64,000 nucleotides of DNA, from the NCBI GenBank assembly GCA_003225315.1, contig QHZD01000030.1:1-64000 (forward strand). Reading direction: 5' to 3'. Under the pieces are notes generated by a model. That model ran no database searches. It had not been told where the DNA came from and saw nothing but the letters and a program-made list of their open reading frames with translations. Positions within the stretch are counted from its first letter, which is position 1, and each line of letters opens with the position of its first letter. Origin of the DNA: Acidobacteriota bacterium. GTDB lineage: Bacteria > Acidobacteriota > Terriglobia > Acidiferrales > UBA7541. Both the position numbers and the translations under genes were made by a program. Of the stretch, positions 25,050-36,947 are shown piece by piece.

Positions 25050-25153
25050 AGCCGTGTCGGGATTTTTGGGAGCAAACTTGGAGCAGCATACAGCATAAGG
25101 ATGGCTCGGAACTCGTAAGCGCAACCGAAGCAACGACTTAGATTGAATTTTCG

Positions 25154-25197
25154 TCCGCTTAGAAGGCAGACGCTCTATCCAACTGAGCTACGGGCGC
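25154..25197 (-). pseudogene. truncated tRNA-Arg (anticodon TCT), 5' portion only
   Basis: Reading the minus strand from 25197: acceptor 5' strand GCGCCCG, a normal D-arm (GCTC/GAGC with AGTTGGATA), and an anticodon stem TCTGC/GCGGA around CTTCTAA (anticodon TCT, Arg). After that the sequence becomes AT-rich and unrelated. No variable loop, T-arm or CGGGCGC acceptor strand follows within 200 bases. It therefore cannot make a functional tRNA. It is probably a relic of recombination or element integration at a tRNA-Arg gene. Confidence 0.75.
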
Positions 25198-25313
25198 ACA
25201 GCTAACGACCATGTGTAGTTTAGTGCCTTTGTTGAGCCAATCGCAACGCCCAGGTTGCAAAGCAAACGCCCAATGTTGGCGGTGAAGTACCGAGCGGACT
25301 GAGATCGGTGAAT

Positions 25314-34177: not shown

Positions 34178-35037
34178 CCGAGGTTTCTCCACTTCTTTCG
34201 CTCCGGCTCTCCGTCGATTACCGCAACAAACCTGGAGTCTTGCGCGATGTCTCGCTCGAAATCCAGCCCGGAGAAATTCTCGGCCTCGTCGGGCAAAGCG
34301 GCTCCGGAAAAAGCACCCTGTCGCTGGCGATTCTGCGTCTCCTTCATTTGAAAGGCGGAATCGCCCGCGGCGATCTGCGCTTCAAGGGCGAAGACCTCTT
34401 TGCAAAGACCGAAGCGCAAATGCGCTCGCTTCGCGGCCGCGAAATCAGCATCGTTCTGCAAAGCCCGTTGTCCTCTCTCAATCCCGCTCTTCGCATCGGG
34501 TCGCAACTCGGCGAAGCCTGGCGTGCTCACGCCACCGGAACGCAAGCAGAATGCTCCGCAGCCATCGGCAACGCGCTTTCGAGCGTGAGTCTCCCCAATG
34601 ACGCCGACTTTCTTCGCCGCCGCCCTGGCCAACTCAGCGTCGGTCAAGCCCAGCGCGTCATCATCGCCATGGCCATCCTTCACCGCCCTTCCTTGCTCAT
34701 CGCCGATGAAGCCACCAGCGCCCTGGACACCATCACGCAATCCGAAATCCTGCGCTTGTTTGCGCAACTCAACCGCGAACTCGGCATGGGCATCCTTTAC
34801 ATTTCCCACGATTTGCTGTCGGTCGCTACGCTCTGCCATCGCATCGCCATTCTGAACGCCGGCGAAATCGTCGAGTGCGGTCCCCCATCGCAAATATTTG
34901 GCGCCCCCCGGCACGCCTACACACAGAAACTTGTCGCCGCCCTCCCCCGCCTGCCTATTTTTGATTGTTCTTCCGGCACGCTCTCAAAGCCGGCTCCAAA
35001 CGAAGAACATCTCGAACCAGTTTTCAGAAGCAAATAG
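34174..35037 (+). CDS. peptide-type ABC transporter ATP-binding protein (DppD-like)
   Basis: 287 residues from the GTG at 34174, which overlaps the binding-protein stop by 4 bases. Walker A GQSGSGKST (40-48), Q-loop QSPLSSLNPALRIG, signature LSVGQAQR (154-161, with Val where Gly is usual), Walker B LLIADEA (174-180) and H-loop His212 are all present. Only one ATPase is encoded here, whereas most peptide transporters of this class use a DppD/DppF pair. It could act as a homodimer or borrow a partner from elsewhere. Confidence 0.9.
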   Translation: MTEVSPLLSLRLSVDYRNKPGVLRDVSLEIQPGEILGLVGQSGSGKSTLSLAILRLLHLKGGIARGDLRFKGEDLFAKTEAQMRSLRGREISIVLQSPLSSLNPALRIGSQLGEAWRAHATGTQAECSAAIGNALSSVSLPNDADFLRRRPGQLSVGQAQRVIIAMAILHRPSLLIADEATSALDTITQSEILRLFAQLNRELGMGILYISHDLLSVATLCHRIAILNAGEIVECGPPSQIFGAPRHAYTQKLVAALPRLPIFDCSSGTLSKPAPNEEHLEPVFRSK

Positions 35038-35045
35038 GCTTGGAA

Positions 35046-35366
35046 ATGAAAGGAAATAGCGCATCCATTGGAGCCGAACCGCTTGGGAGCAAGATAACAA
35101 GTCGCACCTGGTATCGCATCTTGTGGGTTGTCGAGATAATAGCAATCGTAATCGCCACGTTTGTGGTGACCGTGCCGATTCAGGACTACGCTCTCAGGGA
35201 GTTCAAGGAATGGCTCAGCCGTCCATCACCGGAAGCATTGTCGGCATTTCGCAACAAACAACAAGAAGAGTCCCGCCTCCGTATGACCATCGCAGCCCCT
35301 TTCGTTACCCTGGCAATTCTGTTGGCCCTTCCTCTGTACCGATTGCGTCCGAAGTCAAAGAGCTAG
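35046..35366 (+). CDS. small membrane protein, unknown
   Basis: 106 residues with two predicted membrane helices (WVVEIIAIVIATFVVTVPI and MTIAAPFVTLAILLALPLY) flanking a charged, Arg/Glu-rich loop of about 35 residues. No recognised family. It begins 8 bases after the ABC ATPase stop, so it may be the last gene of that operon; the ribosome site is weak. Codon pattern looks coding. A promoter for the next unit begins 15 bases after its stop. Confidence 0.55.
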   Translation: MKGNSASIGAEPLGSKITSRTWYRILWVVEIIAIVIATFVVTVPIQDYALREFKEWLSRPSPEALSAFRNKQQEESRLRMTIAAPFVTLAILLALPLYRLRPKSKS

Positions 35367-35381
35367 CCATTACAGGTACCA

Positions 35382-35410
35382 TTGCCAACTTCCTTTTTCT
35401 ACTGTATGCT
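35382..35410 (+). promoter_or_regulatory. sigma70-like promoter placing transcription start at a leader ORF ATG
   Basis: TTGCCA (35382-35387, 5 of 6 consensus), exactly 17 bases, then TATGCT (35405-35410, 4 of 6). The usual start seven bases past the -10 falls on 35417, the A of the leader ORF ATG. The predicted transcript is therefore leaderless. Confidence 0.6.
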
Positions 35411-35416
35411 TTTCTT

Positions 35417-35509
35417 ATGTCGATGTTTACCCAGAAGAACGCGCCCCTCTGCATCTGTTGTATGTGCTATATGCGTGTGTCTTCTGGCGCGGAGAGGCTG
35501 AGCTTCTAA
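35417..35509 (+). CDS. Cys/Met-rich leader peptide, 30 codons
   Basis: A 30-residue open frame with 4 Cys and 4 Met. The core is CICCMCYM: four Cys codons (TGC, TGT, TGT, TGC) within 35450-35467. No ribosome binding site precedes it, but the predicted transcription start coincides with its ATG, as in leaderless polycysteine ORFs described in mycobacteria. Downstream lie two alternative stems, an intrinsic terminator and a rhodanese gene. The likely role is to sense charged tRNA-Cys through ribosome progress, not to make a functional protein. It could be a chance frame, but composition, promoter position and terminator agree. Confidence 0.6.
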   Translation: MSMFTQKNAPLCICCMCYMRVSSGAERLSF

Positions 35510-35553
35510 AGTTCTAAACTAGCCTCGAACGGTTTTCCCACCCACCGCCAGAA
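35440..35553 (+). promoter_or_regulatory. predicted attenuator: alternative stems 1:2 and 2:3
   Basis: Stem 1:2 pairs CGCGCC (35440-35445) with GGCGCG (35486-35491). Stem 2:3 pairs TTCTGGCG (35482-35489) with CGCCAGAA (35546-35553). They share strand 2, so they exclude each other, and 2:3 also takes the loop-side half of the terminator's 5' arm. A ribosome stalled on the Cys codons (35450-35467) would cover strand 1 and leave strand 2 free for 2:3 (antitermination). A ribosome that moves on would release strand 1, so 1:2 and the terminator form. Confidence 0.5.
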
Positions 35554-35581
35554 ACGAACTGGCAGGTGGGATTTTTATTTT
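35541..35581 (+). terminator. intrinsic terminator between leader ORF and rhodanese gene
   Basis: CCCACCGCCAG (35541-35551) pairs with CTGGC-A-GGTGGG (35559-35570) through 11 base pairs with one bulged A and a 7-base loop. ATTTTTATTTT follows at once. It lies 31 bases after the leader stop and 41 bases before the rhodanese ATG, so it must be read through for the rhodanese to be expressed from the promoter at 35382. It could also end the upstream ABC operon. Confidence 0.85.
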
Positions 35582-35622
35582 GGGAGCAAACGAGTTTCAA
35601 ACTGAACGCAAAGGAGAAAGCA

Positions 35623-36507
<885 letters not shown>

Positions 36508-36551
36508 GCCTGCTTTGTAGCGCCGGATCTTAGTGCAGAGCAGGGGGCCAA

Positions 36552-36580
36552 GGGCGAAGACGCCTCTCCCGTCTTCGCCC
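36552..36580. repeat. 11-bp perfect hairpin after the rhodanese gene
   Basis: GGGCGAAGACG and CGTCTTCGCCC pair perfectly around CCTCTCC, 44 bases past the rhodanese stop. No T-tract follows, so it may be a weak terminator or a dispersed palindrome. Confidence 0.5.
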
Positions 36581-36676
36581 TCAAATCTCGGTGCACGCGG
36601 TGAATTTGCACTGCTCTTTCTCAGACGTAAAACTGATTACGGATAACTGATAACTGAAACGCGTTTTTTGTCCGGT

Positions 36677-36750
36677 GGCGCGGTCGCCAAGTGGTAAGGC
36701 AATGGTCTGCAAAACCATTATCGGCGGTTCGATTCCGCCTCGCGCCTCCA
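36677..36750 (+). tRNA. tRNA-Cys (anticodon GCA)
   Basis: Complete cloverleaf of 74 bases including an encoded CCA. The acceptor GGCGCGG pairs with TCGCGCC (one G-U). Short D-arm, anticodon stem ATGGT/ACCAT around CTGCAAA (anticodon GCA), T-arm GGCGG/CCGCC with TTCGATT, discriminator T. U73 and GCA are the main cysteinyl-tRNA synthetase determinants. It lies just downstream of the rhodanese gene that carries the predicted Cys-sensing leader. Confidence 0.95.
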
Positions 36751-36947
36751 ATCTTTCATTTCTCTTCTTCGCTCTTCGCGTTCGCCCGTTCCCCTGTTGC
36801 TCTCATGGAACGTCCTAAGGCCGTTTCCGCTGACATTGCGCCCTAGAACAGTTGCAAAATAATGACGAGCCCAGCGAACACCCCACGTAGCGTCTTCACC
36901 CGGGCTCCAATTAGAATGCTTGCAAACGCCCGAAAGGACTTAATCGT

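Follow-up and report, generated by a model that had tools for sequence, protein, structure and literature searches.

In mycobacteria, leaderless small ORFs encoding polycysteine are summarised as cysteine-dependent attenuators (Canestrari et al. 2020, doi 10.1111/mmi.14498, via PMC9031893, PMC9094748 and PMC13236596). The mode of action of these poly-Cys leaders is described as translation attenuation (PMC13236596). Actinobacterial cys operons and cbs also have leaders with Cys-codon runs (PMC1262725). In Rhodobacterales, the uORFC-8-2 motif upstream of cysS is a predicted Cys-codon attenuator (PMC8632094). Classical attenuators of the trp, his and thr type comprise regulatory codons, stems 1:2, 2:3 and 3:4, and an intrinsic terminator before the genes.

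We analysed a 64,000-nt stretch of DNA from an Acidobacteriota bacterium, hereafter the window. Upstream of a rhodanese gene is a leader of ~178 nt. Judged from its sequence, this is very likely a ribosome-mediated transcription attenuator whose Cys-rich ORF is leaderless, and would respond to cysteine. It would share with the mycobacterial systems the leaderless start, and shares the Cys-codon run and a position 5' of sulfur or cysteine genes. One mycobacterial poly-Cys leader precedes a sulfurtransferase. We suggest that the acidobacterial leader works like its mycobacterial counterparts, as a likeness rather than by shared descent. It differs from them in its classical terminator/antiterminator switch, its phylum and the presence of tRNA-Cys among its probable targets. 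Furthermore, the leader peptide (P0001) had no match in NCBIfam or Pfam, even at E 10. The trp, his and thr attenuators share its overall layout; here, in contrast, there is no Shine-Dalgarno sequence, the stop codon is beyond strand 2, the amino acid sensed would be cysteine, and the targets probably include a tRNA gene. Tandem Cys codons, a terminator and a predicted response to charged tRNA-Cys are held in common with uORFC-8-2, but in alphaproteobacteria that motif occurs only before the cysteinyl-tRNA synthetase gene, and is absent upstream of genes for sulfur assimilation or tRNAs (PMC8632094). Similarly, the actinobacterial leaders have Cys-codon runs before cys operons but lack conserved terminator hairpins (PMC1262725).

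A promoter scan identified the sigma-70-like site TTGCCA-N17-TATGCT on the plus strand (35382-35410; TTGCCA 35382-35387, TATGCT 35405-35410), and no second such site on that strand within 34900-36800. The -10 box is 6 nt from the ATG at 35417. This begins an ORF of 30 codons plus stop (35417-35509, plus strand), conserved in relatives, that encodes MSMFTQKNAPLCICCMCYMRVSSGAERLSF. The putative regulatory codons, TGC ATC TGT TGT ATG TGC (35450-35467), specify Cys-Ile-Cys-Cys-Met-Cys; hence, four of six codons are Cys, and there are four Met codons in total. Promoter, start codon and codon content had been described in a first-pass annotation and all were reproduced. We infer that transcription starts at or beside the ATG. 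Across 79 related leaders, those of rhodanese plus other targets, a -10-like hexamer (at least 3 matches) was present 4-11 nt 5' of the start codon in 67, most commonly at 6 nt; when the position was shifted as a control, 12 of 79 had one. A Shine-Dalgarno sequence was found in none of the 79. Leaderless translation agrees with this spacing and with the missing Shine-Dalgarno sequence, short of proof.

The leader folds more stably than shuffled sequences (z -3.4). Fold and pair counts define strand 1 (35431-35444, plus strand, as are the others), with the conserved core CCAGAAG at 35431-35437. Strand 2 (35473-35489) can pair with strand 1 (using 35473-35487) or strand 3 (using 35482-35489). 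Strand 3 (35541-35553) can pair with strand 2 (using 35546-35553) or strand 4 (using 35541-35551). Pair counts and terminator energy place strand 4 (35559-35570) and the T-rich tail of an intrinsic terminator at 35559-35582. The terminator stem (35541-35551:35559-35570) has an energy of -18.8 kcal/mol and is followed by ATTTTTATTTT. Hence, the terminator that had been proposed just before the rhodanese ribosome site stands; 91.5% of cells in the alignment of relatives are paired. The stem is nearly invariant and does not covary because there is almost no variation in it.

Covariation links strand 2 to strand 1 as well as to strand 3. In the trimmed alignment, changes on both sides of the conserved 1:2 stem (35431-35438:35480-35487) occurred in 13 cells, versus 5.1 in shuffles (0/500), and in 7 cells for stem 2:3, versus 2.7 (3/500); relatedness inflates these counts, and pairing is far lower when stem partners are slid. 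Position 35482 changes together with its partners in strands 1 and 3, being A-U-A in the window's genus, while another genus has G-C-G in several of its members. The 2:3 stem had been given in the first-pass annotation as 35482-35489:35546-35553, which is an exact 8-bp match. Its 1:2 stem, CGCGCC:GGCGCG, is complementary in the window yet absent from the predicted fold and not conserved. With CGCGCC taken as strand 1, 66% of cells were paired and covariation was not above shuffles; we conclude that strand 1 is CCAGAAG. An alignment of related genomes had also been proposed as a check. The Cys codons are conserved and stems 1:2, once relocated, and 2:3 covary, but stem 3:4 is too invariant to do so. 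By sequence, antiterminator 2:3 and terminator 3:4 exclude each other, with the anti-antiterminator inside the ORF.

Because transcription would begin at or next to the ATG, a ribosome would load on the nascent RNA at its 5' end. With plentiful Cys-tRNA it would clear the Cys codons, 1:2 would re-pair and 3:4 would cause termination at ~35580. When charged Cys-tRNA runs short, the ribosome would stall at codons 12-17 and mask strand 1. Strand 2 would then capture strand 3, and polymerase would read through into rhodanese. In the window's genus, read-through would probably reach a tRNA-Cys gene 169 nt past rhodanese. Conservation, the mutually exclusive stems, the codon-matched regulon and the positions beside tRNA-Cys come from comparison; where transcription starts, that ribosomes stall, that the switch responds to cysteine and that the tRNA is co-transcribed are what we infer.

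Constrained folds of the window leader, a simple model in which the size of the ribosome footprint is assumed, are consistent with such switching. With the ribosome masking codon 12, 14 or 17, all eight pairs of 2:3 form. Stems 1:2 and 3:4 form when the leader carries no ribosome or when the ribosome sits at the stop codon. For a ribosome stalled at codon 15, 2:3 was not favoured. Hence, the earlier proposal that a ribosome on the Cys codons frees strand 2 is borne out in these folds at codons 12, 14 and 17, with strand 1 having been misplaced. Counted by eye, a stalled ribosome permits strand 3 to form 6 or more pairs with the region of strand 2 in 44 of the 48 related leaders listed; the stop-codon state leaves at most 3 such pairs in 37 of them. 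In the same type of fold, 2:3 also forms in some relatives when no ribosome is stalled and strand 4 has yet to be made.

The rhodanese gene (35623-36507, plus strand) starts at the ATG at 35623, preceded by the Shine-Dalgarno sequence AAAGGAG (35610-35616, plus strand). It encodes a two-domain thiosulfate sulfurtransferase similar over its full length to solved structures, of which 3aax (E 5.7e-102) and 3hwi are the closest. Two rhodanese domain stretches and a CRIGERSSH loop identify the product as CysA2-like. There is one close copy in the window genome.

Among 89 genomes of the family, ~35 orthologous rhodanese loci from several genera keep the same leader layout. Briefly, this consists of a -10 box just 5' of the ATG, no Shine-Dalgarno sequence, Cys codons, antiterminator and terminator. 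The relatives are named as Candidatus Acidiferrales and other Acidobacteria (Acidobacteriota). Most of these loci score 100-165 bits against a covariance model of the leader. Sequence comparison thus confirms a recurrence of the predicted layout far beyond chance, with Cys codons, promoter-to-ATG spacing, antiterminator and terminator all conserved, in agreement with the first-pass reading of a leaderless Cys-codon transcription attenuator. The peptides themselves diverge yet remain Cys-rich, as in MSILAQKNAFSCICCMCCMRVSSGAGRLSS, MAMNCYCQIACRCSCCRCCAHVRSGLGRLKI and MQICCQCCACCCCMFCADVSSGAGRLGS. Same-genus rhodaneses of ~68% identity have neither leader nor tRNA-Cys. A few relatives carry damaged leaders; those at L037/L050 look frameshifted. 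At L011 (G022:C15), where the leader is ~215 nt 5' of rhodanese, an in-frame TGA falls right before the Cys run (MQANPQKTTRTS-stop-CCLCCMC). The leader there may be broken or recoded, or the assembly may be in error.

In another family of the same order (L017, L020 and L021), very Cys-rich ORFs ending SGGR or SGGPR precede rhodanese. A G+C-rich hairpin directly follows the ORF stop, which is a different attenuator layout. In other phyla, a Cys leader preceded rhodanese at 3 of 103 loci, against 1.7 expected from shuffles; for loci from an actinobacterial search the figures were 2 of 33 and 0.45. The leader-rhodanese pairing is therefore not general, though individual leaders at L078 (Chloroflexi) and L344/L345 look genuine. 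Our literature searches, which were of partial coverage, agree with the statement that no such control has been described for rhodaneses of this phylum.

The covariance model finds many further copies of the leader in the family and class. Those rich in Cys codons precede cysD, cysH, genes for sulfite/nitrite reductases (one with cobA), a sulfate ABC binding protein, siroheme synthase, TauE, and outer-membrane and solute-binding proteins. Leaders rich in Thr codons precede aspartokinase. Hence, clustered Cys codons are found 5' of sulfur or cysteine genes both in the window and across the regulon, and the short ORFs are rich in codons for the amino acid that the pathway supplies. This match between codon identity and downstream pathway supports amino-acid sensing independently. 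The window genome itself has several targets, of which rhodanese is one. Here, Cys leader MKTCCQMMCCCCACNAACRKARISGQRSFRT (C1:208868-209044; L271, G000:C1:206000-209400) precedes a sulfite/nitrite reductase-like gene with cobA, Cys leader MTSIQLTGVCCCPHPTVTAAAYCLDGKPAF (C17:152017-152192; L272, G000:C17:149000-152600) precedes cysD, and Thr leader MMTPTAKRITSKSSMSIISTTTKKTISASGAWRNT (C50:32432-32614; L270, G000:C50:29500-33000) precedes aspartokinase.

In another family of the class (f11), a leaderless Cys leader is followed by a single-domain rhodanese and then a family 2A encapsulin, the shell protein of a sulfur nanocompartment (L303, L305, L315 and L316); the family 2A assignment was confirmed for L305. 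At L257 and L258 (G099:C131 and G100:C45), a Cys leader is followed by an 1100-residue outer-membrane beta-barrel protein and then tRNA-Cys. The beta-barrel protein is possibly a cysteine- or sulfur-related uptake receptor.

The first-pass annotation omitted the adjoining tRNA-Cys (GCA) gene (36677-36750, plus strand), which has no detected promoter of its own and is probably the last gene of the attenuated unit. A second, different tRNA-Cys is encoded elsewhere in the window genome, with no leader. We consider it fairly likely that leader-peptide attenuation controls a promoterless second tRNA-Cys, directly in genomes G003, G004 and G080 and via the rhodanese transcript in the window. This would be feedback on the tRNA that reads the leader, within a wider leaderless Cys/Thr regulon in Acidobacteriota. 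Elsewhere in the window, on the minus strand at 25114-25199, there is a weak tRNA-Arg (TCT) call, at 30.5 bits in Rfam and just over threshold.

A possible, if less probable, explanation is that the attenuator governs rhodanese only and that tRNA-Cys is a separately expressed neighbour. The 169-nt spacer in the window and a terminator-like element between rhodanese and tRNA-Cys at L010 would fit this. So would the tRNA-Cys genes near outer-membrane-protein leaders at L212 and L214, which seem to have their own promoter and, therefore, were not counted as targets. Against this, the order leader-rhodanese-tRNA-Cys is kept at 14 of 16 testable loci of the genus's leader-rhodanese clade, with the tRNA 55-372 nt past rhodanese. 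Moreover, in three genomes the leader, Cys-rich and with a terminator, lies directly before tRNA-Cys, and the interval holds neither a gene nor a promoter. The leaders are MTSLAKSNVATRLCCRCWGLIRSGEGRLIP in G004 (L186/L209, G004:C241; 33 nt before the tRNA), MVTARFSTQQFGTTACCCTCRYTSGQEDASR in G003 (L185/L196, G003:C13; 12 nt) and MSSALHSATQACCCRAGCVCPDAGGLIG in G080 (L199, G080:C128; 52 nt). G080 carries the usual leader-rhodanese locus elsewhere too. A search of G004 for rhodanese found no match, and the leader is intact there; hence, the tRNA is indicated as its target.

Association of the leader with tRNA-Cys is also evident in the wider set. A same-strand leader lies within 1.5 kb at 14 of 30 loci of this tRNA-Cys type (eight leader-rhodanese-tRNA, three direct and three with the leader after the tRNA), where chance predicts fewer than one, given a match density of a few per 5-Mb genome. 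An above-chance promoter was found in the 62 nt before tRNA-Cys at none of 12 leader-linked loci, versus 10 of the 18 others. All same-strand tRNAs found just downstream of family leaders are tRNA-Cys. At L004/L154 (G017:C327), an unusual additional stretch 3' of the anticodon arm interrupts the tRNA-Cys that follows rhodanese, and ARAGORN calls none.

Translation attenuation, in which stalling exposes the downstream ribosome site instead of blocking termination, is described for mycobacterial leaders (PMC13236596, PMC9031893), whose cys operons are without conserved terminators (PMC1262725). It is unlikely here. A G+C-rich stem with a T run is present in almost all leaders of the family, and the rhodanese Shine-Dalgarno sequence is 28 nt past the T run. 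Moreover, tRNA-Cys could not be controlled in this way because it has no Shine-Dalgarno sequence.

We regard as very improbable that the Cys-rich peptide is itself active, perhaps by sensing metals or thiols, with slow Cys decoding playing no part. Clusters of Cys can bind metals, and the peptide tail SSGAGRL is conserved in the window's genus. However, the tail is conserved because RNA strand 2 encodes that stretch, and both the number of Cys residues (3-9 per leader) and their order drift while the richness in Cys persists. Metal binding cannot account for the Thr codons before aspartokinase in the parallel family. A T-box or other riboswitch with an incidental ORF would suit an element that has a terminator and precedes amino-acid genes, but is scarcely credible, since Rfam covariance models match only tRNAs in the 64,000-nt window, with no T-box or other leader, and codon identity follows the pathway.

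We found no precedent for control of a tRNA gene by leader-peptide attenuation or a T-box in a literature search of partial coverage, including few subscription papers. Within that literature, such a mechanism is otherwise known only for protein genes. If our interpretation is correct, the supply of one tRNA would be set by the decoding speed of its own codons, and tRNA dosage would thereby be tied to demand. Furthermore, leaderless leader peptides acting on a classical terminator switch would constitute a genome-wide sulfur regulon in Acidobacteriota, a phylum abundant in soil for which few genetic tools exist. For annotation of such leaders this offers a rule: codon identity predicts the pathway.
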